The notes beneath the pieces were generated by a model that saw only the letters and a program-made list of their open reading frames with translations, did no database searches and had not been told where the DNA came from. A stretch of DNA of 64,000 nt from Macrocystis pyrifera. Lineage: Eukaryota; Sar; Phaeophyceae; Laminariales; Laminariaceae. Shown here piece by piece: positions 2,392-57,386 of this stretch. How positions within the stretch are numbered: position 1 is the first letter of the stretch; each line of letters starts with the position of its first letter. The position numbers and the translations under genes were made by a program. Location of the stretch: the NCBI GenBank assembly GCA_031763025.1, contig JASSKH010000001.1, positions 5,434,024 to 5,498,023 of the forward strand, read 5' to 3'.

Positions 2392-2696
2392 CTGAATGAG
2401 CATGGTGGCGTGTCCTATCCACGTCACTCGCATAGGATCATCCTTTCCGTGTCTTGCGATCTCGTCGAGTTCCACCTGCTTGAGCGAGGCAGACCAAAAC
2501 AGGGGAGGGGCCAGACCACCACCGTGAGTTCACCACCGTGAGTTGCCTGTTGCAACTCCGAGCGCCCCCATGTTCAAATATAAAAGCAGCCGACAAAACC
2601 CTTACCTGGCATGCACTCAAAACTAACACACCACCACCCCCCATGTCCATCACCATCACCGCTAGCCGGTTATTTCACACCGCGCACTTTCCTCAA

Positions 2697-3092
2697 CACC
2701 AAACTACACCACACCACATCATCACACCATCCCTCCCCCCCCTCTGCCACCCCCCCTACCCCCCCCCACCACACCACACCATACCTTACTACACCACATC
2801 ATTCCATTCCATACCATACCATACCGTACCATACCATACCAAGCCACACCATACCATACCATACCATACCATACCATACCACACCATACCATTCCACACT
2901 ACATCATTCCATACCATACCATACCACACCACACCATACCACACCGTACCGAACCATACCATACCATATCATACTATACCATACCTTACTACACCACATC
3001 ATTTCATACCACACTATACCATACCATACCATACCATACCATACCATGCCATACCATTCCACACCATACAATACCATACCACACCATCTTAT
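2697..3092. repeat. Pentanucleotide (ATACC)n satellite
   Basis: About 400 bases of ATACC/ACACC/ATTCC pentamers lie in an intron of the NAPE-PLD-like gene. The array ends about 5 bases from the splice donor of the upstream exon at 3098. Long open frames across it are artefacts of a period that avoids stop codons. Confidence 0.95.
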
Positions 3093-3320
3093 CCCACCTC
3101 AGCTTTCGGGAGCGCTTCCTTCGCCTCCTCCTCCGTGGGCGACACGCCAAATCCCTCCTGAGATGTCATCACCTTGAACAGGTCCCCGATGCTCTTGGCA
3201 GTTGCGCCGGGGGCCCAAGGGTTGTCGTACGTCACTCGTGTTCGAGGAGACCTCGGGACTCGGTCTAGAGGGACAGCAAGGGGAGGAAAAGGTTCACACA
3301 TCGTAGAAATCAGCTAGACC

Positions 3321-10866: not shown

Positions 10867-13290
10867 TTTGTTGTTTTCTTCACATTAAACCGTTCTTTCT
10901 ACGCGTCGACATCCAGCCCAACCATTGCAGTGTCCGTGCCGATTCTTCAAACCTAGAGAGATACAAGTTCTGTGGTCACAAAGCTACGCCACAGAGATAC
11001 TACGTTGCCACGTATGCAATGCAATGCCATGTCCTCATACTGCGTACGGCAGGCACGACATACCCATTCCATGACCTAGAGAAACAAAAACGAAGCAAAG
11101 AGAAAAAACAAAAACAAAAACAAAGACAATTCGAAAGAGAAAAGAAACAAAAAAATACCTGGTATATGTATATACTTCAGTATAGCAACAAACCATCGTA
11201 CCCCCGCATAGGGGACGTGGCAGACACTTGAAAATAACGAGCTGGAAAAAAAAAAAAGAAAAAGAAGAAAACATCACTAGTCGTCAACAGAGTAAGACTA
11301 AGAACCAAGGGAAAAATAACAGGCAAACCAAACAAAGCACAAGGCATGCTCCAGGTAGCGGCAGCAGTTTATGGTACGAGTAGCACAGCCAGGGTCTCCC
11401 TGCTGGCCCGCCTGGTACCTTGCTACCCTGTCTGCCGCCATCGTCCAGCGTTCGCCAACTATGCCCGGCCCCTCGGCGTCAGACAGTACGAAACAAGCAA
11501 AGCAGGCTCGTCATCCACCCACGCCACACGACTCCTTCAATAAGGCTTATCAATCGGAGAAAGGAAGAGAAATGAAAATCACATAGGGTCACCGCAAAGA
11601 AGACAATAAAATGAAATAAAAAAATACAAAAACAACAGGAAGACAAAGGAAGACCCCGTTCGAACCAGCTGCACCAGTTGGTGGTACGAGTAGTATAGGC
11701 ATGTTCTACTTCTTAGTCTGCCCGGTACCTGGCCACCCTATCTGCCATCTCCTTCCTACTTTCGTCCACTGCACTTTCCCTTCTACTCCTCTTCCCCCCC
11801 TCTCCGCATTCCCTTGGTCGGGTTTTCTGCTACTCCTCTTGTTGCCCCTCCTCCCCCCATTCCCTTGGACACCACCCACGGCGGATGCGCGGCGCTGCCT
11901 GCTCAGCTCAGCCTCAGCCTCGTGCCACCTCACCATGAACCGTTCGGCTGCTTCCAGGATCCCCCAGTACCACTTCCCCGCCTTTTTTTGCAGCAGTGGG
12001 CCACAGTGCGGTCTCAACTCCAAACACCAAGGGAGCAAGTTCCGTTGACCCTTCGGTGGCGCGGAACTCCCTAAGGTCTTCGACTACGCATCTATGCCAA
12101 GTCTTAACCTGTCCGCCAGGTCTCGGGTTCTCCCCACCAGCAATCGTCCCGAACATCACCCGGCTGGGTAATCGATCCTTGCTTTGCCATGCCACCCCCT
12201 CCGCGAAGAAGAGACGCCGTTTGCGGATGGTCGTTTCGATGCTCTCGCAACGTGTCATCTTGAGGGCCTTCGCGTACGAGAGGGTGGCATGGTCAGTACG
12301 AAGTCGGCGCTGGAAGCCAATGACTCGCAACAGGACTTGGTGGTGAGCCATTCGAAGCTTGGCAAAGTGTTCCGCTCTGAGGGTCCACGTTACATACCCG
12401 TAGAGCAGGGTCTCAATCACCTCGGCCTTCAGCATTCGGACTTTCAGGCTAAGGGGGGCGGTCGTCCTATCATACAGCTCCGGGCCGAACCGTTTGAGGC
12501 ATGCTCGCATGAGACGGATCCGTCGGTCGATTTCGAGCGAGAGGTCAGCATTTTCGTGGATAACGCCGCCTAAGTACAAGAACTGGGCCGTCTGCTTATA
12601 CCTCTGGCCTGCTGCTTCGATGACGAGCGGTGGTGCGAGGGTTTTCTGGTCTGGCGTTTGCAGAAGCATAGTCTCTGTCTTCTTTTCCGACACCGTAAGG
12701 CCTGCTGCTTCGAAGACAGTCACGATGACTGTCATCATTTTCGCGAGCCCTTCAGCCGACTTCGAGACAATCCCTGCGTCATCGGCGTACAACATGCCCC
12801 ATACAGCCCTTCGCACGCACGCCAACGGCTCCTGCTCCTTCGTTCCGACTACTCCAGCATCACTGAGTTGGACCAAATCCCTTACGATGGCTTCGTCATG
12901 GCTAAAGCGTACTAGTACGACGTGCAACGCAGCAGCGAAAAATACGTTGAACAGCAACGGTGACAGCACACAGCCTTGCCGCAGCCCCTGCGTGACATCA
13001 AACCATTCCGAGTGCTCGCCGTCATCCGTTCGCACGCGAGCCCGCATGCCATCGTGGAAATTACGGATAATTCTCAGCATCTTGGTTGGTACGCCAAAAC
13101 GTGTGAGTACTTCCAATAACAGCGGGGCGGAAGCCGCACTGTTCCTCCGGGAGTAATTCCTCGGTCTCGCAGTAGTTGCTGACGCGCGACGCGAGGATTT
13201 TCAACAAGACTTTGCCTGCGTGGGCAACAAGCGAAATCCCTCTGTAGTTGTTGCAATCAGTTCGGTCATATGTGTACCAGGCACACACAT
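10867..13290 (-). mobile_element. 5'-truncated LINE, copy 1
   Basis: Non-LTR retrotransposon in minus orientation. The reverse-transcriptase ORF lies at 13290-11914, followed by a 1-kb 3' region ending with GGTTTAATGTGAAG and an (AAC)n tail. The endonuclease is absent. The same 3' region recurs at 31410-34426. The clade cannot be fixed by eye. Confidence 0.85.
11914..13116 (-). CDS. LINE reverse transcriptase, partial (400 aa)
   Basis: This is the 3' two-thirds of a LINE polymerase, which copies element RNA into DNA at the target site. Near residue 42 is [18 protein letters not shown] (the RT block before the catalytic site), then YADDAGIVS at about 110 with the catalytic Asp pair, then a thumb-like C-terminal region with [14 protein letters not shown] and an [11 protein letters not shown] motif. 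Just upstream (13270-13145) another piece reads [16 protein letters not shown] and EEQCGFRP, the first RT blocks. Between CGFRP and the start of this ORF about 40 residues are lost, including the first catalytic aspartate block, and the frame changes. The product is therefore not expected to be active. Confidence 0.85.
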
Positions 13291-13796: not shown

Positions 13797-13805
13797 GTTC
13801 TGAAA

Positions 13806-13890
13806 GGGACCTGGTATAAGTACCCCATGGGGTACGTGGATAAAAAGTACCCCACCAAAGAGGTACTTTTAAAAGTGCACGTACCCCAAA
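13806..13890 (+). repeat. MULE left terminal inverted repeat
   Basis: 85 bp, starting GGGACCTGGTATAAG and ending CACGTACCCCAAA. It pairs with 21423-21504 and lies at the 3' side of the transposase gene. Confidence 0.95.
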
Positions 13891-15060
13891 GGAAGACCTA
13901 CTACTGTAACTATAACACATATACATACATCCAATGTCGACGTCTCCCGAGCTTTGATCTGATCCGGTGCGCTACTGCTGTACAGCAGGCCGCGGCACCA
14001 CTACATAAGGTCACATACAGCCGCAGCAGTACTATCGTGTCATTTGGTATCTTATACTACCGCTGCCTCGCAATAGTACGTCGACGTCGTCCGTTAGAGT
14101 ATGATACTCCCACTCGTACTGGTATCCGACAGATCATGGTCTATTAATAGTACATTGTTATTGTGTATGTATCTATCTGTAACCCATCGCTCTCCGTCCA
14201 CTCCCGGCGAACAAACAACCTTTACCTGGGTATGTTACTACTGCTGCTGCTGGTTGTCCTCACCACTTTTTTTTTAGGAAATGCGTGCAGAAGAGCTATC
14301 AAGGATAATAGGTTCCTCCTGTCCTGGCCTCATGATTCGGGTGATAGACTATAATACAAACTGCTGTTTTGATGATAATATACCTAATTTTGTTGTATTT
14401 TAGAAAGAAGAGCAGACGCCATGGTGCACGAACGACCACCCACCGCACGTGCATCAAATGAGCAGCGCGAGCATCAGGCCTGTGCTGGACCTCTGCCGCC
14501 TACTGCTCAACACCTTCAGGAAGTATATACCGTGTATCTGTACATCCTGCATTGTTTAATTTTGTAGTACAACTATAAACAACACGAGTATTAGCAAGCA
14601 GCAGTAAGGCTTCACAACGTACACTGCACATATAATTAATACATTGTCGGATAGTGAAACCGTAAGTTCATGCGCAAGGAGTTTTACCTCCGATATGTTA
14701 TTCAGGTTGCCCTCCGAATATGTGCCACTCAATTTCCACTTTTCGACGTACCTTAAATATCGACATCGGTGTATATATCAGCACCATACAAATAGCTGCT
14801 TGCTTCGTACTCGATGTAGATAGTATACGCGTTCTGATGTATTAATATGGTCGTTTTGCGGCGAGAGGGTGGTAGGCAACGTAATGCCCCCCGACGACGT
14901 AGTACGTAACGCGAGCGAGTGGTCACGCTTTGGAAATATAAACATATCTCCAAGGAAACGCTGTTGCGTACCAGGGGATTCTTCAATTCATCCATGGAAC
15001 ACCATGTCTGCCTACCAGCATCTTCTATGCCTCGCGCTTTATTCACCTCGCGTTTTTGCG
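13891..15060. other. MULE interior, 3' side of the transposase gene
   Basis: No recognisable gene. Rich in TACTGCTGTA-like motifs and short AT stretches. A small open frame at 14753-15046 (minus) resembles nothing known to me. Confidence 0.4.
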
Positions 15061-15067
15061 GGGAAAT

Positions 15068-15362
15068 TTGTCTTTGTTAACCTCATTTTTACTTTGCTGC
15101 TTCAGGACAAGCCGTCTGTACTCCCCCCCGGTACGTGCCTTCATTTTTATCGCGTAGAGGGTTCAGCATTCCCGACTGGTGGTCGATTTCCATCGAATGT
15201 CGCTGACTCACGCTCTCGCGCTTTCCGCTAGTCAACTCTATGCACAAGAAGAAGTCCCGACGAGTATAGACGAGCATGCAGTGGCGGGGCTCGAACCTGT
15301 GAAATCGTCCTTGGTCGTTACGCGGTTTACCTACTACCAGGTAGACCTTAGGGGACACCATG
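15068..15362 (-). mobile_element. SINE with tRNA-like head, inside the MULE
   Basis: Read on the minus strand from 15362, GGTGTCCCCTAAGGTCTACC leads into a tRNA-like region with a B box GGTTCGAGCCC (15286-15296), followed by the shared body (AAAGCGCGAGAGCGTGAGTC). The A-rich tail end is degraded. Confidence 0.8.
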
Positions 15363-15404
15363 ACCCTAAATGACATACGCTGCGCCCAACATGAACTATT
15401 TTTT

Positions 15405-15612
15405 TCTCTTCATGTTCCCATCTCATTTCTTTTCTCGCCCCCTCTTAGTCCTAACTGAGATCCGGGGTCATATAGCAGGCTTTTCTCTCCCCCCCCGATA
15501 CGCCCCCCCCCCCCCCCCGTGCGCGCTACCGTGCACATGTTGTATTTCTATCGCGAAAAAGGTTCAGCACCTCCTTCCTGTGTCGACTCGTGTCGAATCC
15601 TACGCTCTTGGC
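15405..15612 (-). mobile_element. Degraded SINE body
   Basis: Retains the SINE body landmarks in the same orientation (GGTTCAGCACC for the usual GGTTCAGCATT, and a C-rich stretch expanded to about 17 C at 15507-15523). It ends within 10 bases of the transposase stop codon. Confidence 0.55.
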
Positions 15613-15619
15613 TGGCCAC

Positions 15620-18600
15620 CTAGGTGGCTTTGGGTCTCTTCCTGGACGAGTGTAGCTCCGTGCAGTCTAGATACCGACTCTCCTTCTTACTTCTAACCGA
15701 CGAATCGGGCGGATTGAGTATGCCCGAGATGTTGTCTGGGTCGCGAGAGAGGAGAGGGCCCCGCACAAAAGCTTGCGCATCCCGCGCGAACCTCGCCGCT
15801 ACTTCCATCCCTGCATTGTAGTAATTCGGGCGGTTTTGGTCGAAGTGGTCGATAACACTCCTGACCGCGGCAACGCATGTCTCCATCATGTTGGCGCTCA
15901 GCTTCCCTTTGATGACCGCACCTAGGGCGCTGCGCTTGACATGGTTGTCATCCTGCATGTATATCCCCCCAAAATCGTCAGTGAAGCCACCATCGTACGT
16001 CCCTCGTTCATGCCCGTCGAACACGCTAAGGTCGGCCCTGTGGATACTCCACTCGTCACCAGAATATCGCCAACGAGGGTGGATACAATCGCCATTGAAC
16101 TCTAGGGCGCGTTGCAGCCGCGTGAAGAGTGCGACTAATACGTGCCTGCATGGCAAGCCACAACGCAGCACCTGCAAGCAAGTGCATAGCTGAAAACCGT
16201 CAGGCCTGACAACAACGATGTGCGCGCTTTCGTCTTGGTACCGGAACACCACTTTTACGACAGCAGTTAGCTGCACGTGCTCAACCAGTTGATGAAACAC
16301 GGGCAAAGTTGTCGCCCCAAATTTGGGGCCCAATGGATCATAGTCCTCATCGAACCCTTCCTCCGGCACCTCCCGACATACATCGTGGTGGTCACTGCTG
16401 TGCTCTGCCAACTTCCTCAGGAAGTCGTTGGCACCATTGCCCTCTGCCAGCACGTCTGTATCATAGAGGGTGCTTGTCCGTAGTTCTTCCAGCATTTTCT
16501 GCACAAGGGTAGATGAAACCGAGCATTGATGGTTACTCAAACTATTGGACCGATCGACAGTGGTTAGATATAGAGCACTACCTTCTGGATCACTCAGTCA
16601 GTACGTAGTCAGCGCCGACTGAGTGGTCCAGCAGGTAATAATAGTGCTACATAACCACATTTCACACTGGGCCCAGGGGAGAGAGGTGCAATCTGCTCAC
16701 GGCTATAAACATATTTCAGCATGAGAATATACTGAAGGAGATTCTATGCACCACAACTGTCAAGGACGGACTACCGGCACGTATTACCGTTGTCTCCTCT
16801 CACCTTATGTGCGTAGTGGCTGACCTTAACTCTTTCGAGTTCCTGCAGCATAGGCTCGAAAGACTTGAGCACTTTGTCCTCCAGTTCCTTGATGCTGACG
16901 GCGGGGACCTTGGCGGCACGTCTTTGCGGTCGTTTCGGTCAATGTGGACAGGGCAGTCGAGGGTCTTTCAGGTGAGCATGCAGCACCCAAACATGGTGTA
17001 AGACTTGACATCTCGACGTATACCCCCCGTAACTGGGCCTAGTATCAAGGTCAGCAATCTACCGCAATCTACCCAACATCTTGAGGACCAATTTACTGTT
17101 CGTCAAGGATAATAGACTTCTCTCCTCAATCGATGTTTCCTGCCGTCTTTTTTTTCACCATTGATTACGTGTACCACGAAAGAAAAGCAACATGAGCGAC
17201 TGAACTCAAGCCAACTAACTGGCCGTATATTTCCGGATCGCCCTAAAACGAGAAGACACCAGATCGTGGAATAGAAAGCATGTGATGGATGATGTGGAGG
17301 GTTAGACATGAAACATTGGCGTCGCCCACCCTCGCCGCACTATACCCTTGATTCAAACTCACGCGAGGGATTCCACAGCAATGGCCCTTGTTCGTCTGGC
17401 CAGCTCCTCCTTCACCCAGTTCAGGGTGGATTTCCTGTTGATGACGTGGCGTGTTTTTAGCACACCGAAGATTCCCTCCACCCTCGATGATGCTGTCATG
17501 TTCAGGGTCATAGCGGTCGGGTGGTAGCAGCGGGCCCAGTGCTTCCGTTGCCTGTAAATACAACGATTGAACCATGAGATAATTTTATCGTTCTGTCTAG
17601 CAAGGCAATATGCTTTTGTCTCTGAGCAGAAACCGAAAACCATGCTCGTGCCCGTCTGACCGACGGACTCACCCGAATAGGTAGCCGCTGTGGTACGCTT
17701 GACACGTCGAGTCCTTGACCATTTCCACTACTTTCGCCCACACCCCGTCAAAGGCCTGCAACCCGTGGACGAGCGACACGGCGACAAGAACCCACGGAAA
17801 ACGCTGGTAAGGCTATATGCACCAGGTATTGGACACTCCATAAAAACAAAACAACGCAACAAACGCGGCGCAAAACCGCAGCGAACCGTGGTCGCCGGTC
17901 CTTGCAGTCTGGACCGTGCCACTTACATTCTCCGACGTAGCATATGCGCAAGCATATATCAAGCCCTGTAGGTGTGAAGTGCTTTGCCCGAGCGCGCCTT
18001 GGCACTTCTTCTTGACATTTTTCATCAAGTGCCAAAGGCAATGCAAGTGCACTGTGTTTGGAAGATGCTCCGCAACCGCGCTTGTCATGGCAGCGTCGGC
18101 GTCCGTAATAATAACCTTCACGGTGGGAGGGAATACACAATTAACGCAACACGTTAAGGCTCTGCCCGTACGGGCGTGACACGCGAGCACCAAATAGGCA
18201 GTGGCATAACATGTTCGATCGACGAGAAGTGGAGGCAAGCAGAGCAACTCATCACCAACTTTCACTGCGGCCATGGCAAGCACCCGAAAAAAACGCAGAG
18301 CACCTCACGCTTCACGAAGTAAGCGGCCAACCCTTCAGTCGACAATACGTGAATGCACACCCCTTTAGCTATCGTCGCGCTCAATAAATCGTTTGTGGTA
18401 AATGACCGTTGAATAACACAGTTTAGAGACTGGCCGTCAACTCACCTCAGGGTGCCCACCACAAATGGCGACAAAATGCTTTAAGGCGTACGCGAACGAG
18501 GTCGTCTGCTCGTCCGAGAAGAAACCTTGGGCCAGAACTACAGACTTGTTCTCGGAATCAACACCGATGAACAACATCAGTTTCAGGTCATATCTGCACA

Positions 18601-20192
18601 CACGAAGAACGCAGGAACACGTTGGAAACACGACGGACCGTTTCGGCGATACCACAACTGCGAAACTGTTAAGACATATATGCAAAGCGGTTGTCAAAGT
18701 CTGGCGCACCATGGGCAATCGAACAGCGTTGTGGTTTCCACGAACGAGACTCACTTGTTCGTCAGGCAGGTGTTATCCTGAATAACAAGGTGGCCGTATT
18801 GTTGCGCAAGGAGTTGCTGATCGGCGGTAGACCAGAAAATCTTGTTCAGTCGACCTGAACCGTCCAAGTCCCACTTGACGTAGCAACCAGGCGTGCCCTT
18901 CAACGACGTCACTAGATCCATTGCGTCGGTGGGCGTCGACCACATTTCGCGTCCCACTTTCTTTGCCATGTTCCGAACCTGGAACATTGGAGGGAGGATC
19001 GCAAGCACTACGAGTAAGCGTCATGGTAATAGAGGGAGCAAAGTATGCTGAGCGGACGTTTGCAAGCATGCGAATATGTGCGGTATACGTGGGAGGCCAA
19101 CACGCGACGAAGGGATGAATGGCGGTACCTTGTTCTCCAGGAGAACACAGTGCTCTAGAGAACATGCGCAGTCAACGACCCTTTCTATGAGCGTTTGCAC
19201 GCTCAAGCTTTAAAATGATGTACGACATTGGCAAGGTCATTATTAGTGGCCCCGGTAGCCCCGCCAACATGCCCTGCCCGACAGACAGATGAGGTGGTAT
19301 GACGACAAGGGGTGATGCATACAGGCGAGTCGTACCACACACTTTGTAGCATCCCGCCTGTTTTTTGTGTGTTTGCCTACGTAATGCTTATGAGGCAAGT
19401 ACGCCTGCACAGCTTGAGCGCATCAATTTCTACGGCCGGTGTCAACGTGCATCCTCCACCCCTCAGCATACTTAAACCTGTGCTGTTTCACTCGCCTTCT
19501 GACGGCCCGTCTCTCCTAGTTCAAGAGGCGCGAAGTGACTTGCGATCAACCTGAACATGTCGAAATAGGTTATCCCTGTCTTCGTCCAATGTCGAATATC
19601 TTCAAGGCATCCTTCCTCAATGCGGTCAGGAGGAACCATATCCTTGTTCCTGATCAGCTCCACCCTTGCCGAACACTCATCGACGTGCTCAAGGCAGACC
19701 TGTGCCGGGCGATAGGTAACGTGTGCAAAATAACACTATCACCGCATTGTCCCTTCCGGGGAGTTCATGAATAAGAAGCGTAGCAAACTGTACTGACCAT
19801 CCGGGCAAAACAAGGCAGGAAGGAGCAGGAAACTGGGCTTACCTTCCCCATCGTCGGTGGCTTGTTGTTGTTCCAGTTGACCTTCACTTTGAAGGTACAC
19901 CCACACTAATCCAAACCGGTACAAACACACGCACAGAGATGGAACGGACGCGAGGGACATAATTGGGATACATGTTGCATACGTGCAGGAGGCCTTTAAC
20001 CGAGGTTTACACCGCAACGCCCGGTGTGCCGATGCTTGGCGCTATTCTCTACCTTTCTGCGAGTTACTACGAGAAAATCGACGGCCTTCTTCTTACCTTG
20101 CCCGTCTCGCTAAGCTTTGTCTTGCTGTCCCTGCGTTGATGCCTTCGCTTGCTGTTTTTCTTCCGAGTTGAACTGTTCTTAAGTCCAGCCAT
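15620..20192 (-). CDS. MULE transposase, ten exons, 752 aa
   Basis: Cuts and rejoins the MULE at its TIRs. Minus-strand exons: 20192-20097, 19905-19843, 19699-19478, 18978-18755, 18593-18446, 18115-17927, 17803-17673, 17551-17363, 16921-16804, 16498-15620. All nine introns are GT-AG and every junction keeps phase, giving 752 codons without a stop. Residues 1-32 are basic and NLS-like. C33, C35, C55, H58 and C62 look like a small N-terminal zinc finger. The DDE core is D214 (IGVDSENK), D256 (VIITDADAAM) and E383 (SSRVEG), with the MULE C277-x2-H280 (CLWH) between. A SWIM zinc finger follows (C565, C567, C577, H579). The frame is open upstream to 20303, so the true start could be earlier, perhaps in exons near 21100-21380. 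Homology is certain; exact exon ends are by eye. Confidence 0.87.
16566..16656. mobile_element. 90-bp foldback MITE in a transposase intron
   Basis: The arms AGAGCACTACCTTCTGGATC and GGTCCAGCAGGTAATAATAG are imperfect inverses, with ACTCAGTCAGTA and GACTGAGT nearer the centre. It lies in the intron between the last two transposase exons. A half copy occurs at 23990-24030. Confidence 0.65.
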
Positions 20193-20303
20193 GATGCTGT
20201 CCTCGTCTTGCTCCTGCCGTTCAGACGAAGCACCGGACGTTCTTGACGACCGACGAAAAACACCGTTCGTGGTATTGTTGCTATGAATCGTGAATGCCGA
20301 CAC

Positions 20304-21422
20304 TACCTCGAATCAACACGTCAAGTGCGTAAGGATTCATGACAACGCAAAACACCATTCGTGTCAAATATCACGTGTCGAGATACACCTGATCAGACCC
20401 CTACATCATCTATCCGGAATACAACTTCCACCTCGGATATCTCAGGAGGGTTGGTTGTGAAAAAAACACATGAACGCTGTCAGGCCGATGCCATGGGAAT
20501 CAACGTTCCTTGTGTGCGCCCGCCTACTGCTGCAGGGTGCGAGACCCAACAACAGCAGATGCACAATGTTGCATGATGGAGCTATTGTCATTTTGTAATC
20601 GCCAAATTCGCACAAGTATGTTCGCATGCCTACTGCTGCAGGTGCGAGACCCAACAACAGCAGCTGCACAATGTTGCATGGAGATATTGTCATTTTTAAG
20701 TCGCCAGATTCGCGCAAGTGTGTACTTCCTTCGCAATTCCGTTTGACGTGTCCCTTCGCGAGCGCAGCGCGCGGCGTTGGCCGCCCGCGAAGCGGAGTCC
20801 TTGCACATATTTCAAAATGCAAATTAACAAAAAATACGGTAACAAACAAGTTGGTTGTATCTTCTCTGGCCGCCCGCGAAGCAGAGTATTCTCGGAAGGA
20901 TGAGAGAATGTGAGTTTTGTACGTACGTAAGAAGTCAAGCCCTTGAAATATTTCAAATTCAAATTACAAAAAATAGACCGGTCAGCCCGCCACAACAGGT
21001 TGGTTGTATCTGCTCTGTTTGGCGAGGAGATAACCCGGAACAAGCTGTCTCGACGAGGTATTACAACAACACCAGCACTTAGACGAGGACTGCTAACCTT
21101 CTATTGCTGTTGGGGTAGGTTGGCGCTTGCTACAGCAGAAGACTTCCCTTCCAGGCTTGCTGGCTCGAAGCTCTGAAGCCTCTCTCTTTACCGCTCTAAT
21201 TGCCTGCAGTGCCCGACGATGGAGAGCTGTGCGTGTGCTTCTAGCTGCTGTTTCCTTGGCTTGGGGTGTTTTCCGTTTGGCTTGCTCTGCGGTGCTGGCG
21301 AGTGGAAGCTGGGACGGGAACGGACCAGACGTGTCGATAGGCGATGGCCCGGCGTGGCGTTGGGGATCTTGCCGGCACAAACGAAATGCACTACGAGTAC
21401 ACTGTAGAAACCCTATGGTTTG
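20304..21422. other. MULE 5' region with two internal tandem duplications
   Basis: A unit of about 107 bp occurs twice at 20521-20735 (CCTACTGCTGCAGG, CACAATGTTGCATG, ATTGTCATTTT). A second looser doublet around 20780-21020 shares GGCCGCCCGCGAAGC and CAGGTTGGTTGTATC. The block lies between the right TIR and the transposase start, where a promoter is expected. An open frame at 21380-21093 (minus), Ala/Arg/Lys-rich, may be an upstream exon but is unproven. Confidence 0.6.
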
Positions 21423-21504
21423 TTTGGGGTACGTGCACTTTTAAAAGTACCTCTTTGGGGTACTTTTTATCCACGTACCCCATGGGGTACTTATACCAGG
21501 TCCC
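21423..21504 (-). repeat. MULE right terminal inverted repeat
   Basis: 82 bp, complementary to the left TIR. The transposase reads away from this end, so it probably carries the promoter side. Followed directly by the GTTCTGAAA target duplication. Confidence 0.95.
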
Positions 21505-21513
21505 GTTCTGAAA

Positions 21514-27968: not shown

Positions 27969-30900
27969 ATGAAGACCCGAAACATTGCGTTTTTGATGGG
28001 CATGTCAGCCTTAGCAGCAGCCGCGGAGCCGAACATGAATGGGCAAGCCCACGCAGAGGACGGGCCTGCCGAGCCCGAAGTTGCACGTCCGATCGGCATC
28101 CTGATAATGGCGGAGGGTAGGTCGGGCTCGACGATGGTTGGAGAGCTTTTCCGACAAAACAAGGTATGTTCGTGTACGTAGGTACCTGCTCGTACGTATC
28201 TTTCGCGACTTTTTTTTTCTCGTTTTTTTATCGCCTACCGTATGCTTTTTGCCCGTAGCGGTCTGTTCTGGACAAGCCGTGGTCACAGGGCCTGGTGTCT
28301 CTTTCCCCCCCCTGTACGTGCCTTCGTTTTTTATCGCGCACAGGGTTCAACGTTCCCACTGCTCGTCGATTTTCATCGAATGTAGCTAACTCACGCTTTC
28401 GCGCTTTACGCTATACCCTCGTAATCAGTTTTTATGCAAGAAAAAGTCCTTATCATCACCTGTGTACGAGTATGCACGGGTGCAGCGGTACTGCTGTAAA
28501 CACGAAACGACGCCTCTCTCAACTACAGCAGTACTGCTGACGTACTAACGCACAGCAGTAGCATATATTGAGGCAAATTGCCTCGTGTGTACGAGTACGT
28601 GGTAGAAGCATCATATCGGTACATCAGTGTTTTTTTTTTTTTTTTTTTCACTCATCACTTTCACTTTCCAGCCTAATTCGTGAGAGGTTTTACCCTCGAC
28701 GACCTTCTGGACAAGCCGTGGTCACAGGTGTCTTCCCTTCTCCCCCCCGGTACGTGCCTTTATTTTTTATGGCGCATAGGGTTCAGCATTCCCACTGCTC
28801 GTCGATTTTCATCGAATGTAGCTAACTCACGCTCTCGCGCTTTCCGCTGATAAATCTCTTTGATGCAAGAAAAAGCCTCTACGAGCATGCACTCCGTGAG
28901 ACTTGAACCCACGAAATTGATCTTGATAGGCACGCGGACCACCTACCAAACCACTGGGGACGCCGGCTTCGTATGAACATCACCGAACAGAATGCACGAA
29001 TACGACTGACTACAGGTATATAGGTACGACGGAACACACCAAGAAAAGACGTAAGGCGGTGTGCTGCTGTGTGCGCTGCTGACACAGCTCAAGTGCGCAG
29101 TGATCAAGGTGCATTACAGACAGTATTAATACGCGTTCAGCCCCAAACACGTTGCTCCTGTCCTGGCAGCAGCAGTATGGGGCAATGCTGGTACGTACAG
29201 CAAGCAGCGGTGTCAGCTTTTCGCGGGTCAGGTCAAATCTCACGGGTCGGGTCGGGTCGGGTCGGGTTGGGTCGGGTCAGCTGACCCGACCCGACCCGCG
29301 AGATTTTGAAAGCCTCTTGACCCGACCCGACCCGACCCGCGAGATTAAAAAAGTTGTTGACCCGACCCGACCCGACCCGTGAGATTTGAAAATATCCTGA
29401 CCCCCGACCCGACCCGACCCGCGAGATTTCAAAAACCTCCTGACCCGACCCCGACCCGACCCGACCCGCCACCTTCGGATTGACCCGTGAGACACGGGTT
29501 TCATGCGGGTCGGGTCACCTTGACCCGCGAGACAATTTGTCTTGACCCGCAGGTCCGACCTGCGGAGCCGGTCCGTCGGTCGACACTTCAAAAACAATTT
29601 AATATTCATTTTGTGCCCACAAGCGATATGTGGCCTGGCTGTAATGGGTATTAGTGGATGCGGGCATGCGTATATGGATTTTGACAGTGGTTTAATGTTT
29701 GAACACGATACTAGTGGATGCGGGCATGCGTATATGGATTTTGACAGTGTTTTAAAGTTTGAACAAGATACCAAAGGAGTATTATTGGGTATTTGTACGA
29801 GAAAAGCCTTTGGATAAGAGAGCGGGAAGTACTTTGAGTGTCGGGTCCGCGGGCCGGATGCGCGGATCCGACCCGCGGGTCAGCAGAAAAGAACTCGCGG
29901 GTCACGCTGGCCCGACCCGCGAGTGACCCGTTTTCTCGCGGGTCATGACCTGACCCGACCCGTGAGCTTTTCACCACCTCTTGACCCGACCCGACCCGAC
30001 CCGTGAGATTTGAAAAACTCTTGACCCGACCCGACCCGACCCGTGAGATTTGAGAACCTCTTGACCCGACCCGACCCGACCCGTGAGATTTTGACCGCTT
30101 CCTGACCCGACCCGACCCGACCCGTGACATTTTGAACACCCCGTCCCCGACCCGACCCGCGGGTCGGGTCATGACCCGCGAAAAGCCCTGGTATTTTTGG
30201 CACGTATTATGTTCGGTTGAAATATGTACTCGTATACGTATATTTGTCAAATTTTCGTACTTTTGCCAACTTTTCTCGTCTCACGAGCACTTTCAGGCAA
30301 AACTCTAAGTACACGGACACGGGAAGCCCTGCCGGACACATTGGTCTAGGTCTCGGTGCGATCCGTGCACTCTGAAGCGCGTAGCGGGCGCTCAAAGTTT
30401 TTTTCCCGGCGGGAGTGGATAAGACGATTTCCCTGGTTTCAGTAAGAGGCCTTACTTTGTACGTACGTACGTATGGGTCTGTCAGTATTTCGAGGTACGC
30501 ATTTGCGAGGAATATATATATATATATGCATGAACTGCGAAGTGCGAATACTCTCAGTATCTCGAGGTTCTGTACTGCGCATGTTGCCTTTACTAGAAGT
30601 ATTTCGTGTTTCGATACTACTGCGGGTACACACTTTCCTGTATTCTCGGGGTTCGGTACTGCTCGCATTCTCATTACTCTCAGTGTTTGGGCCTTCTCAG
30701 TGCTGGCAATATTTTTGCCGCCTGTACTCCAATACTTTCAGTGCTCGGACTGCGATTTGTTCTCGAGCATTTATCTGTGAAACCTTGATGTTACCCTGAG
30801 CACCAAGAAACATTAATTTTGGGGGAACATCGTATATATTGTACCAGTATGTATGTGCTACTGTATCTTACTCAACCGGTCACAAAGTATTGTGGCGCAA

Positions 30901-33900
30901 CCTCGACCTCGCGCAACTATTTTTTTCTTACGAATTAATCGCCGCGAGTCGGCTGGATCAATATATCCACTTACCGCTACTCTACCCGATTTTATATTAT
31001 TATTGCAGTAATGATCCCACACTATAATTCCGTGAACAGTATAATATATAATAGTCTGTCCTCAAAAATATGTTGTGTGTGTTCTTCACGTTAAAATGAT
31101 GAGTGGATGCAGGTACTACGTCTACACAAGTGTGCAGGGTTGCATACGAATGTTGTTCCGCTCTTGCGCCACTCCCCTATTCATACGGCACCTCCCGGAG
31201 GGGAACCTTGTATTTTTTATGATGTCTACTAGGTACGTACGTACGTAAGGCATTATCTATTCGGTAAATCCCTAGATCGAGACACCCCAAGGGCGCCGCC
31301 CGGAGGAAAAAATGTGAACCGTCGCAGAATACCCCTGGAATTATTTTACTTGGTATTTGGTGTGGTACCATTTCTTGTTTCGAAAATTCTAGAATGTTTG
31401 CTGTAGGGTTGGTTGTGTGTGTTCTCCACATTAAACCGTTCTTTCTACCCGTCGACATCCGGCACAACCAGTGTCCGTGCCGATTCGTCAATCCTAGGAG
31501 ATATACAAGTTCTGTGGTTACAAAGCTACGCCACAGAGATATTTCGTAGCCACGTATGCAGTAAGCACAGTGGGCAATGCAGTGCCATGTGTCATCATAC
31601 TGGATACGACAGGCACGACATACACATTCCATCACACTCTTTGGCGTACCAACCAAGATGCTGAGAATTATCCGTAATTTCCACGACGGCATGCGGGCTC
31701 GCGTGCGTACGGATGACGGCGAGCACTCGGAATGGTTTGATGTCACGCAGGGGCTGCGGCAAGGCTGTGTGCTACCACCGTTACTGTTCGACGTATTCTT
31801 CGCTGCTGCGTTACACGTCGTACTATTAATAGTACCCTTCGGCCAAGACGAAGCCATCGTAAGGGAGTTGGTCCAACTCAGTGATGTTGGAGTAGTCGGA
31901 ACGGGGGAGCAGGAGCCGTTGACGTGCGTGCGAAGGGCTGTATGGGGCATGTTGTACGCCGATGACGCAGGGATTGTCTCGAAGCCGGCTGAAGGGCTCG
32001 CGAAAACGATCACAGTCATCGTGACTGTCTTCGAAGCAGCAGGCCTCACGGTATCGGAAAAGAAGACAGACAATGCTTCTACAAACACTAGACCAGAAAA
32101 CCCTCGCACCACCGCTCTTCATCGAAGCAGCAGGCCAGAGGTATAAGCAAACATCCCAGTTCTTATACCTAGGCGGCATTATCCACGAAAACGCTGACCT
32201 CTCGCTCGAAATCGACCGACGGATCCGTCTCATGCGGGCATGCCTCAAACGGTTCGGCCCGGAGCTGTATGATAGGACGACCGCCCCCCTTAGCCTGAAA
32301 GTCCGCATGCTGAAGGCCGAGGTGATTTGAGACCCTGCTGTACGGGTGTGAGACGTGGACCCTCAGAGCGGAATACTTTGCCAAGCTTCGAACGGCTCAC
32401 CACCAAGTCCTGTTGCGAGTCATTGGCTTCCAGCGCCAGCTCCATGCCACCCTCTCGTACGCGAAGGCCCTCAAGATGACACGTTGCGAGATAATCGAAA
32501 CCACCATTCAAAACGGCGGCTCTTCTTTGCGGGGAGGGTGGCACGGCAAATCAAGGAGCGATTACACAGTCGGGTAATTTTCGGGTCGATGGCTAGTGGG
32601 GAGAACCCGAGACCTGGCGGACAGTTTAAGACTTGGCATAGATGCATATTCGAAGACCTTGGGGAGTTCCGAGCCACCGAAGGGTCAACAGAACTTGCCC
32701 CCTTGGCTTTTGGAGTTAAGACCGCGCTGTGGTCCACTGCTGCAAAAAAGGCGGGGACGTGGTACCGGGGGATCCTCGAAGCAGCCGAACGGTTTATGGT
32801 GAGGTGGCACGAGGCTGAGGCTGAGCTGAATGAGCAGTGCCGCGCATCCGCCGTGGGTGGTGTCCAAGGGAATGGGGGGAGGGGGGGCAACCGAAAGAGT
32901 GGAAGAAAACCCGACCAAGGGAATACGTGGAGGGGGGGGAACAGGAGTAGAAGGGAAACTGCAGTGGACGAAAGTAGGAAGGAGATGGCAGACAGGGGAG
33001 CAAGGTACCGGGCAGACTAGGAAGTAGAACATGCCCATACTACTCGTTCCACCAACTGGTGCAGCTGGTGTGACCGTGGTCTTCCTTTGTCTTCCTTTTT
33101 CAATTATTTCTTGCGCTGATCTTCTGTGATTTTCATTTTATTTCTTTCGCTTCCTTCCTTTGATTGATAAGCCTTATTGAAGGAGTCGTACAGCGTGGGT
33201 GGATGACGAGCCTGCTTTGCTTGTTTCGTATTGTCTAACGCCGAGGGCCCGGGCATAGTTGACGAATGCTGGACGGAGGCGGCGGGGTAGCAAGGTACGA
33301 GGCGGACTAGCAGGGAGGACCTGGCTATGCTACTCGTACCACAAACTGCTGCCGCTACCTGGAGGATGCGTTGTGCTTTGGTATGGCTGTTAATTTCCCT
33401 TGGTTCTTAGTCTTACTCAGTTTACGACGAGTACGAAGCGGTGTTTTTTCTTTTTCCTTTTTTTTTCCAGCTCGTTCTTTTCAAGTGCCTGCCACATCCC
33501 CTGCGGGGGGGGCACGAGAGTTTGTTTCCTATATATATATATATATATATATTTGCTTTTTTTTTCTCTTTCGATTTGTCTATGTTTTTGATTTTTTTTC
33601 TTTGTTTCGTGTCGTTTCTCTCTGTCATGGAATGTGTATGTCGTGCCTGTCGTATCCAGTATGATGACATGGCATTGCAATGCCCACTGTGCGTACTGCA
33701 TACGTGGCAACTAGCCTTGTGACCACAGAACTTGTATCTCTTCTAGGATTGAAGAATCGGCACGGGCACTGGTTGTGCTGGATGTCGACGGGTAGGAAGA
33801 ACGGTTTAATGTGAAGAACACACACATGAAATAGAGAAACGAAACGAAACAAAGAAAGAAGACAAATCGAAAGAAAAAAAAAAAAACGAGAAACATATAT

Positions 33901-45900: not shown

Positions 45901-48900
45901 GAGAGTACCTGTGGTAGTTCGCCCCGCCCCCCCCCCCCTCCTAAAGCCAATCTCAAACGACTCCGTATCGTCCATCATTTGCAGGCTGACCCAGTGTACC
46001 TTCAGTCCCGAAGATTCGGCGTGGATCGCAGACGATGTCAGCGCAGCCCATAGGGGATCGCCGGCGCTCAAATCACTGCTGACTGCTTCTGGCGCAAAAA
46101 AGTTCGCGGAGGCGCACGAACATCTTGTGGACACGTGCATGAAGAGCAAGTGAGCATCCATCTGTCCACTGCTGTAGACGCGTGTTTGCCTTGTAGGGAT
46201 AGCGCCTACAGTAGCGTCTCTGAGACTCCTCGCTTGCGGTCTCTATTTCTATTTTATCCCACGCAACAACCAAGTTTGAGGAAAAGACGGAAGCTACTGC
46301 TTGTAAGCCAGATGCGCAGGCCCATTGGGCTACTGTAAGTATCTAAGGAACAGCAGTAGTGTAAAATATGTTGCTGTTGTTAGTGCGGCGACACCAGAAG
46401 CTCCGCCAGTCCCATCGAACAGTGAGTGCTGTAGCGATCCCGAAAAACTGTCTTTCCGGCAATCCCAAGCGCTTTTGCTTGCAGCGATCCCGTAAGAGCG
46501 TCTTTCCGGCGACTCCGCCTTGATGAGGCGATCCCTGTTATGGCTGGCGGTCCCTGTTGTATTTTCACAGGCTTAAATGTGATAGCCCTTGTCGAAGTCG
46601 ACGTTAGTACATCCACATCGGACCCAAACATCGGGTAGTTTGAGAGTTGCAATGGTTGAGGAGCCTCGTCAGTGCCAAGTGTTTGGATGCCACGTGTTTG
46701 GGCTGTACTATAATCAAGTGAAAGCCCTCGGGTAGGGGTTTTGCCCTTTTTGGCTCAATATTATCCGATCGGTTGAGCTTCTCAGCAACTGTTTGTGTAC
46801 CGACTAGTACAATATTTTTTTCCGATGCCCTTATCTCATCCGATGCCATCAGCTTTTATCTACTGTAATGTCCTCAACTTAATCCAATGTTTTTCACGTA
46901 TCGATGTCCTTTACTTATCCAATGTCTTAACTTATCCAATATCATTAACTTGTCCGATGTCCTTCAAGCATTAGTGGTTGCGAAAAGGCGCTTAACCCTT
47001 TCAGAACTGAAGTGCAGTTTTTGGGAACGAACCACTCTAATTCCAAGTGTTTTGTCTCCCAAACGGGACTGCGGTCCTAAAAGGTTCAGAGACTAACGTA
47101 TACCACTCGGTTCGTAAAATATAGTACGCGTTTGGACTTTTGTTGCCCGAGTATCCGAACGCGCTCTCTGTGTGGAACGGGACGTTCGGACGTTTGTCCG
47201 AAAATCAATGTAGTGCGCGCTTGGACCTTCGTTAGCCGAGTATGTATCCGAATGCACTATCTATGTGGAAGAGCACAGTGACGTTCGCGCATTTACCCGA
47301 AAGTCATTGTAGTGCACATTTAGACCATTCTTTGTTGTCCGAGTATCCGAACGCACTCTTATGTAGACGAACAGAGTGATGTTCGGACATTTATCCGGAC
47401 ATCAATGTAGTGCGCGTTTTGACCTTCATTATCCGAGTGTATCCAAACGCACTTTTACGCGGACGAGTAGAGTGACGAATCGGACATTTATCCGAGTATT
47501 AAAACGCACTCTGTGTTGGCGGCCGGAAAGGTTACCTGGTACGAATTTTGTCCGAAGGTCCTTGATCTGGCAGCAACCTCTGCCCGACCGCGCAGAACAG
47601 GTACAGACAAACAGACAGACGGACAGACGGACAGACGGACACGACGCGTGATAGGATAGGTGTGGCATGCTATTTGCGACTGACGGGGCTCCTTCTGGGC
47701 TCTGAGAAACTAGTACTCAACGTGACTGGGACCCTCTCAGTGTTTTAGTAGGGTTGGGCACTGGCTGACTCAGTCCGTAGCGATTACACTGTCGCCAAAA
47801 TCAACCAGCATACTGGATTGAGCGGTATACTGTCTGTCTTCTTTACTCTCTCCTCCCAAAACGCATTTAGTGGGTTTCCGTATTATAGTATGGCGTGTTT
47901 CTTGGGCGTACGTAAGGTGGAACTGCTGGCGAATATAATGGCCAGTTCAATAATTAGATTACTATGTACTGCCAGTAAATTACTACTTCCAGTACATACT
48001 GTCCCGGTGCCCAGCCCTATGCTTTCGCCCTTTTAGAACTGGAGTCCCGTTTTGGAGGCAAATTAGAAGTGCTTGTCCCCAGAACCGGACTGCAGTCCTA
48101 AAGGGTTAGGATAGTCGTGCTTAAGCCATGCGTGGGATTTTTCATTGAGTTGCACGTTCTGTGAATCGAAGGCTCATGACCCCTTGGCGAAATCCCCGGA
48201 TAGGCGTGTGTGTGCGGCTCCTGGGTTAGACCAGGCAGCCCGCCGCAGAGGTAAGCACTTCAGCCGGTGTCGAAGCGACTGCCTGTTTTTCGAGCTTAAT
48301 CTCTCAGAAGAACATGTACATAAAAGAAAATGGTGCTCAAGGCCAGTGTCGACTATCGGGCTTGTCCAACAGGACAGGATGAGGAGGAGGTGGAAGAGAG
48401 GAAGTAAGTGAAGACAATTGGACGAGTGTGTGTGCACGGTCGATCGATCACGGAGCTCTCAAGTCTCAAGACACCCAGCATGCGGTGGAAACTAAAACTC
48501 GAACCCAAAACGTCGGCGGAACTCGAAACGGTGTTCCGGGGTTCTGTCGCATATAGACCCGAGATAAATGGTTAAACGGAGTTTCATCACATGCTACAGA
48601 ATCACTATTGGACGTACCGCACTGCTTATACTGCTGCTGTGGCCTACTCGCTATAGACGACTATGACACCGATCAGCGACTCGGTATAGACTACCGACTA
48701 TCACATTGCCCCTACGCTGCACGCATGTTTGTCTTAAGGGCGTCTGCCAAGTGTCCCGTATTTAGCGCCCAAACGCGCAGGAAACAAACTGGTCCGAAAC
48801 CTACCCGACTCCACTAGGCCTAACCGCTAACCCTAAGTATGAATAATCGTGGGCTTTACAGCGCGGAGATTGGCTACCAACTCTCGCTTTTTGTTAGAGC

Positions 48901-56531: not shown

Positions 56532-57386
56532 ATGGCGACGAAAGAAAGCGGTAAGGGACAGGAATGGGACCCTGTCCGCCGGGTAGAAAATCCGTGTTCG
56601 AGTCCATTGGTAGATTCGTACCTTACCTTCGTCTCTGAGGAACAAAAACAGGTCGGGGTTCAGGTCAATCAGGCCGCGCCGATGTTGGAACACACACTCA
56701 TAGATCTGCTAAGCGACATGGCTCAGGTGGCCAGCTCTCTGGCAGAGCGTATTTTTCTGGCCCGAGATATCGCCTTGTATTATTTGGCCTTATATTCGTT
56801 GCGTAGGGGTTATGATCTTTCCTTTACCATGGGTCGCACGTTTTGAAGCTCCCCAGCGTCTAAGGGTTTGATTTTCAACTTTCAGTTTGGCAGGATGCTT
56901 CGGGCCTTTAGTGAGGCAGTGGTAGTCTTAGCGGACCGGGACTGCCCGGCGACTGGCGCCTTTCGGGCGGTTACGGCGTATATCTCGACCGCACGGCGGA
57001 TTGAGTGGGACATAACCACCGGGCACATCTTCCCCGTTGCTACGGCAGAAGGTGGCCGGGGCCGTCTCTCTCTTTCCGCGGTCCGTATGACGGCGAACCT
57101 GCAAAGCTATCTGCGGATGGCAGACCTGCCGACCCACTTCACGATGCACTCCTTTCGAGAGGGAGGCTCGCTCAGCAAATCCCTGGCCGGGACGGCTGTG
57201 GACGAGATAATGAAAATTGGGGGCTGGAAGGCAGAGTCAGTTGCGAAGTACTACATCGGGGCTACCTCGAGTGGACAAGTGCGGGGTAGCAAGAAGAAAC
57301 GGGGCCAGAGCTACGCGGAAGCTAGCGAATTACCAATGTCGCCAGAGTTCAGAAAGAACTTTGCGGCGTGTGCGGGAAAGGGCTGA
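56532..57386 (+). pseudogene. Tyrosine-recombinase remnant of a mobile element (Crypton-like or DIRS-like)
   Basis: The region matches the tyrosine recombinase/integrase family, which joins DNA through a tyrosine-DNA intermediate. The second half shows HSFREGG (the HxxR box), then EIMKIGGW and AKYYIG with the candidate nucleophilic Tyr, and ends in a basic GSKKKRG tail. The first half carries LYYLALYSLRRGYDLS with a candidate first catalytic Arg. The element is broken and treated as a fossil. I cannot see a reverse transcriptase nearby or terminal repeats, so Crypton (DNA-only) is slightly favoured over DIRS. Confidence 0.75.

Follow-up and report, generated by a model that had tools for sequence, protein, structure and literature searches.

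The stretch of DNA analysed here, referred to as the window, comprises 64,000 nucleotides of the kelp Macrocystis pyrifera (contig JASSKH010000001.1) and holds, at 13806-21504, a Mutator-like element (MULE) of 7,699 bp, with two inverted ends, a target-site duplication (TSD) on either side and a transposase gene on the minus strand (Table 1). The initial annotation had described this element as an apparently intact transposon with inverted ends of 82-85 bp and a perfect 9-bp duplication. Ends and duplication are as described: the two inverted ends, of 85 and 82 bp, differ from each other only by one 3-bp indel, their 21-bp tip occurs twice in the window (0.00 expected), and GTTCTGAAA is found without mismatch on both sides, with a third occurrence in the window at 46999-47007 (0.73 expected by chance). 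The intactness, however, does not hold. The window copy keeps both ends together with the DDE and SWIM region, and it is without an OTU domain, an alanine-rich part and further N-terminal sequence; it is missing a 909-bp segment held by 11 other copies of the family and, compared with the copy on C139, the OTU domain and the alanine-rich frame. Judging from the comparison of these copies, it would be a shortened Mutator-like DNA transposon, most likely derived from an OTU-carrying MULE through internal deletion, a reading in which we have good confidence.

The minus-strand frame, as rebuilt, spreads over ten exons and 736 codons, with nine introns, GT-AG junctions and phases that agree at the joins, which bears out the ten-exon gene proposed earlier. 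The 752 codons then counted are reached through an alternative upstream acceptor of exon 7, adding 16 codons, whereas the model followed here has 736. This 736-residue product matches the Pfam family PF10551 (MULE) with an E-value of 1.5e-21 and 77.1 bits (cut-off 27.6), over residues 194-284 and profile positions 4-99, the match extending over the exon 4/5 and 5/6 junctions; a related Pfam model, ZSWIM1-3 RNaseH-like, likewise scores above its cut-off (35.6 against 27.2 bits). Because the MULE match begins at residue 194, we take D195, the Asp of 'QDNTCLTNKY', as the probable first catalytic Asp; D214, to which the initial annotation had given this role, is instead the Asp of 'FIGVD'. The second Asp, D256, has the position previously assigned to it, and the C-x2-H motif is present as CLWH from residue 277. 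The former E383 is the same residue as E367 of the 736-residue model (less 16), which we presume to be the catalytic Glu of the MULE family. The SWIM finger is recognisable as a pattern, with CTC from residue 549 and C-R-H at 561-563, although its Pfam score stays below the cut-off of 19.6 bits, both in the full model (16.6) and in the exon alone (17.7). A search for relatives of the transposase among solved structures gave none up to an E-value of 1.

The coding model is supported by the Pfam match, by the open frames of several copies and by the placement of indels. The frame of 2,211 nt is kept in the window copy and in three further copies (L048, L040 and L042), while it is interrupted by one internal stop in L058 and broken in L051. 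Inactivating changes shared by all copies, which the initial annotation had named as evidence that would speak against it, are in the simple sense not present, as these four frames attest; the shared frame is shorter than the coding content of the longest copies. Indels relative to the window, counted over exons 4-10 in eight copies, fall once in exons and 16 times in introns. In one of the comparisons made for substitutions, L006 has one 1-base exonic gap, and the exonic gaps of 48 bases in L007 and 38 bases in L008, which lie at the start of the query stretch and of the locus, are not counted as indels. Substitutions by codon position were also considered as coding support and set aside in favour of indel placement, since they show no purifying selection: across exons 7-10 in all 21 aligned rows, the variable sites number 31, 22 and 21 of 423 for first, second and third codon positions, and those of the introns 55 of 863.

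Table 1. Features of the element in the window, with positions counted from its first nucleotide.
Feature	Position	Strand	Basis or remark
Left TSD	13797..13805	.	GTTCTGAAA; equals 21505-21513
Left terminal inverted repeat, 85 bp	13806..13890	+	40 left ends, this one included, 99-100% identical genome-wide
Smaller deletion, about 80-97 bp relative to other fetched copies	14340..14360 (place approximate)	.	Gap only in window and L048 of 21 aligned rows
Exon 10, SWIM-like finger and stop codon	15620..16498	-	SWIM 17.7 bits against cut-off 19.6
Exon 9	16804..16921	-	Splice model
Exon 8, presumed catalytic Glu E367 (736-residue model)	17363..17551	-
Exon 7; upstream acceptor would add 16 codons	17673..17755	-
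Exon 6, D256 (second catalytic Asp) and C-x2-H (CLWH)	17927..18115	-	Splice model, Pfam
Exon 5	18446..18593	-	Splice model; joins of exons 4-6 within single Pfam MULE match
Exon 4, D195 (probable first catalytic Asp) close to 3' end	18755..18978	-	Splice model, Pfam
Exon 3	19478..19699	-	Splice model; no Pfam match of its own
Exon 2 as modelled; acceptor uncertain, second acceptor suits longer copies better	19843..19905	-
Deletion junction, 909 bp missing relative to 11 longer copies	19992..19993	.	Alignment and genome queries
Exon 1 as modelled, start codon	20097..20192	-	Splice model
Right terminal inverted repeat, 82 bp	21423..21504	-	One 3-bp indel relative to left repeat
Right TSD	21505..21513	.	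GTTCTGAAA

The genome search, made on one assembly (537,376,219 bases in 223 contigs), located many further copies with the same inverted end, as the initial annotation had suggested looking for. Among 42 matches to the left end, at least 40 are 99-100% identical, the window's own included: 30 at 100% (in one case the match covers 83 of the 85 bases) and 10 at 99%, a count that is a lower bound, with 40 of 177 candidates scored. Places with a MULE domain number 94 genome-wide, some belonging to other families. Twenty further copies (L039-L058) were compared with that of the window. In all 16 copies with both ends in view, the duplications are exact, 13 of them of 9 bp and three (L040, L047 and L048) of 10 bp; in four of the 20 fetched copies (L039, L044, L051 and L057) the right end was not found. 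These ends and duplications support the recent insertion and possible mobility proposed earlier. Pieces aligned by BLAST among the copies are mostly 97-99% identical, with a minimum of 96% inside the element and a value of 83% where a further copy adjoins L046. L046 itself, a class B copy (see below) on C206 near 10506406, was inserted into the end of another family copy, and its duplication, TATACCAGG, equals end sequence. Two other copies on separate contigs, L034 (C155) and L037 (C9), share the left flank TGTTGAATG and are perhaps duplicate pieces of the assembly.

According to their length, the window copy and the 20 others sort into four classes. Class A has four members (L040, L042, L058 and L051), with the 909 bp that are missing from the window; the lengths of three of them lie between 8,656 and 8,667 bp. 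The window type is represented by two copies, that of the window itself and L048 (7,700 bp), between which a comparison over the full length shows 36 substitutions and 21 gap columns. Class B is the largest, with 12 members, 10 of them of 6,944-6,977 bp; its copies are without exons 2-5 of the model, hence without the presumed first catalytic Asp, and they hold about 1,107 bp encoding an OTU-like fragment that scores 21.6 bits against a Pfam cut-off of 23.3. The three members of class C (L044, L047 and L050) are without the part that corresponds to about 19348-20735 of the window. A distance of about 7% between classes B and A was dropped, as the alignment sets OTU stretches against transposase stretches to which they are unrelated, and for the same reason the exon 1-6 columns of class B were left out of the frame comparison.

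A query over the junction of the window copy at 19992/19993 is contiguous in three of 40 scored matches (96 candidates), the remaining 37 being interrupted at that point, and the 909-bp segment itself, with 40 of 86 candidates scored, is found in full 11 times, nearly in full once, as its first half 23 times and as its second half five times. The two halves of this segment share an overlap of 5 bp (GCAGG), which reads as a probable deletion junction inside class A. Besides the window and L048, the deleted form occurs at a third site, C189:23594423-23602126, in a copy of 7,704 bp with CAGCGGGTT at both ends. Since each of the three window-type copies has a different duplication, copies of this form have moved. 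On C189, this third copy and a class B copy stand back to back over 23594423-23609065, with one 9-bp duplication between them, and the same 9-bp flank lies beside a right end at C222:2405045, which may be a site without the first of the two.

Those longer copies that were read add two further candidate N-terminal exons to the model. L040 and L051 keep the second N-terminal exon in frame; in L042 and L058, with an A-run one base longer than that of L040, the frame is lost. The third has one base more in L040, L058 and L051 (in L051 judged from lengths) than in L042, and with this extra base the exon 2 acceptor CAAAG/TG suits three of the four longer copies compared. In the window, CAAAG/TG would run into a stop, and the join of exons 1 and 2 requires the other acceptor, TTAG/TG.

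The longest member for which both ends and the duplication were located is the C139 copy, of 12,553 bp. From its left end at 1386476, it holds in order the MULE exon at 1390752, the second half of the 909-bp segment at 1392770-1393259, the OTU domain at 1396419-1396802 and the exon-1 side at 1397519-1397626; the right end followed by the left duplication, searched as one pattern, has a single match in the genome, C139:1399022-1399038, and the duplication, CCTCGTGAAC, is of 10 bp. Its OTU domain is complete, with DGNC, WGGG and NHF in one frame and a Pfam score of 24.3 bits (cut-off 23.3), and is followed by a frame rich in Ala, Glu and Lys, both being upstream of the MULE exon on one strand. 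Among the copies read, an OTU domain complete with Cys and His is documented between the same two ends as a MULE domain for C139; the window copy does not have this combination. The part of it that was read (L059/L060) matched, among the 21 element copies compared, only the 12 of class B.

The OTU-like stretch of class B, used as a query, matches in all 40 scored of 55 candidates, at 96-100% identity. The C-terminal half of the OTU domain, missing from class B, has DNA relatives at four places (four of four candidates scored), namely C139, C202 (98%), C208 (94%) and C196 (73%), this being a DNA query that would miss distant matches such as the one on C219 (43%), visible by peptide search only. 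On C202, as on C139, a MULE exon lies near the OTU domain on the same strand. The OTU peptide gave 74 matches among 80 scored, long OTU frames being those of C139 (321 residues), C208 (315) and C218 (288, with one stop within the match), and among solved structures the OTU has 12 relatives, the best at an E-value of 8.5e-4. The C219 match belongs to a divergent family (C219:5120939-5129153), in which a MULE exon, within a frame of 313 residues, lies 8.1 kb downstream of the OTU domain (43% identical) on the same strand.

The family belongs to the MULE superfamily, as the initial annotation had stated, given the DDE domain, the duplications of 9 or 10 bp, inside the range of about 8-11 bp expected for MULEs, and the near-identical inverted ends common to dispersed copies. 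The shorter copies are without differing internal parts relative to the C139 copy, and these short forms would be deletions of an OTU-bearing parent. The transposase is expected to bind the inverted ends and move the element in a cut-and-paste manner, the 9-bp duplication resulting from staggered cuts at the target, and the few longer copies may supply a protein that can also move the shorter ones. The window copy could accordingly owe its movement either to longer copies or to a shortened transposase of its own; help from copies such as those of C139 or C202 seems the more probable, given that the window lacks the N-terminal part. A further step would be that the large-MULE lineage of kelp makes its transposase along with a coiled-coil-like, Ala-rich stretch and an OTU protease, which guards the transposase or its complex against ubiquitin-dependent removal, and that copies without that part parasitise the complete ones, which they outnumber by more than 10:1. 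We put this forward tentatively, as a possible yet rather doubtful extension.

The window copy might alternatively be a complete autonomous MULE, its transposase of 736-752 residues being enough and the OTU copies being loaded with accessory parts. In favour of this, its ten exons form an open frame, both ends and the DDE and SWIM region are present, and its form occurs at three sites with different duplications. The window copy is nonetheless without coding parts of the longest copies, and for that reason does not qualify as a complete autonomous element: 11 of the 40 scored copies hold 909 bp more, with two more candidate N-terminal exons in those read, and the exon 1-2 join of the window depends on TTAG/TG where CAAAG/TG fits three of four longer copies. 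The arrangement on C219, with OTU and MULE on one strand, points in addition to the OTU domain as the older state, and autonomy of the window copy thus appears unlikely to us. The same arrangement counts against a late capture, in which class A without OTU would be ancestral and the lineage of C139 and C202 would have acquired the OTU and Ala-rich parts afterwards, and so does the possibility that the truncated OTU of class B and, in class A, the exons near the first Asp are what complementary deletions left of a single longer parent. MULEs with captured parts are on record, according to two papers (PMC12477816, PMC6446971), and a late capture is in our view equally improbable. That the gene would be a domesticated host gene rather than a transposon can hardly be credited. 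It shares an open frame and many introns with domesticated genes of the FAR1/FHY3 type, whereas its near-identical inverted ends and exact duplications at many sites, the 99-100% identity of the dispersed ends and the missing sign of purifying selection all speak otherwise; a FAR1/FHY3-type gene, that is, a single host gene without mobile ends, is ruled out by the mobile ends and the many copies.

Several observations weigh against the deletion of an OTU-carrying parent, or against parts of the model on which it is built. The 5 bp of GCAGG at the class A junction are also what the duplication made by an insertion would give. The C139 copy was read in part, over its left end and 1.8 kb, and its transposase frame lies outside that part. 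The exon joins of the ten-exon model are predictions from the DNA, and the N-terminal model, of 277 residues, has no Pfam match. PF10551 was also found in three of 14 prokaryote control genomes, and therefore the superfamily is not settled by the domain alone; the ends and duplications settle it. Lastly, no sign of purifying selection was found in the sampled copies, third codon positions showing no excess of substitutions, and in L007 the change is non-synonymous in 20 of 26 changed codons, so that the intact frames may only reflect youth.

The kelp family is a further member of an already known class of MULEs. It shares with the superfamily (PF10551) the DDE domain with first and second Asp, the C-x2-H motif, long inverted ends and 9-bp duplications, together with a candidate SWIM-like finger, and differs in the nine introns of its model and in the OTU-like domain upstream in its longest copies. 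Kaonashi-type MULEs of land plants carry ULP1, a cysteine protease of the ubiquitin/SUMO pathway, in the place of which the kelp counterpart has OTU.

By description, three published groups can be likened to it. MULE group 14 (MuDR-6_HM, Cnidaria) is tabulated with an 'Ovarian Tumour Gene' in PMC6446971, both being MULEs with an OTU-type gene, group 14 having an animal host and no inverted ends tabulated. The same source lists MULE-Diatoms (group 37, Stramenopiles) with SWIM, inverted ends of 123-124 bp and 'No TSD and not indicated', so that a Stramenopile host and inverted ends, and putatively SWIM, are common to both, whereas the kelp family has duplications. For Ectocarpus, PMC12477816 reports one DNA/MuDR family with 56 copies, 42 of them intact, which is likewise brown-algal, Mutator-type and rich in intact copies; its authors also note that introns are numerous in brown-algal transposase genes and that some families are moved in trans. 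Literature searches, which covered some sources in part, found no published description of this kelp family, which is no proof of its absence.

What emerges is a young MULE family in kelp, with very similar copies, exact duplications and four length classes among the 21 compared. A complete OTU domain has close DNA relatives at only four places, and with this set of copies the need of OTU for movement lends itself to testing, as does the question of which copies still drive the family. For annotation, the case advises caution, since a copy can show tidy ends, a precise duplication and an open frame and still fall short of the complete form.

Regarding the insertion site, a query made of the joined flanks found no empty site for the window insertion among the 40 scored of 123 candidates in this assembly: two are the window's own two halves, and the other 38 fall in a neighbouring repeat. 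This repeat, starting about 31 bp to the right of the element (from about 21545 of the window onwards), supplies most of the joined-flank matches, a few of which start closer, the nearest at C220:9168435; its copies are partly arrayed, with a spacing of about 5.4 kb, on C211, C199 and C193. Elsewhere in the window, a frame at 56847-57386 (+) resembles by eye the end of a tyrosine recombinase (HSFR...GGW...Y), with no Pfam match, and low-complexity frames at 2484-3268 and 29277-30280, one of them TIPYH-like, resemble translated tandem DNA repeats. The element is also flanked by reverse transcriptase frames (RVT_1), at 11914-13200 (-) with an E-value of 6.6e-16 and at 31565-32146 (+) with one of 6.7e-10, which are retroelement remains.

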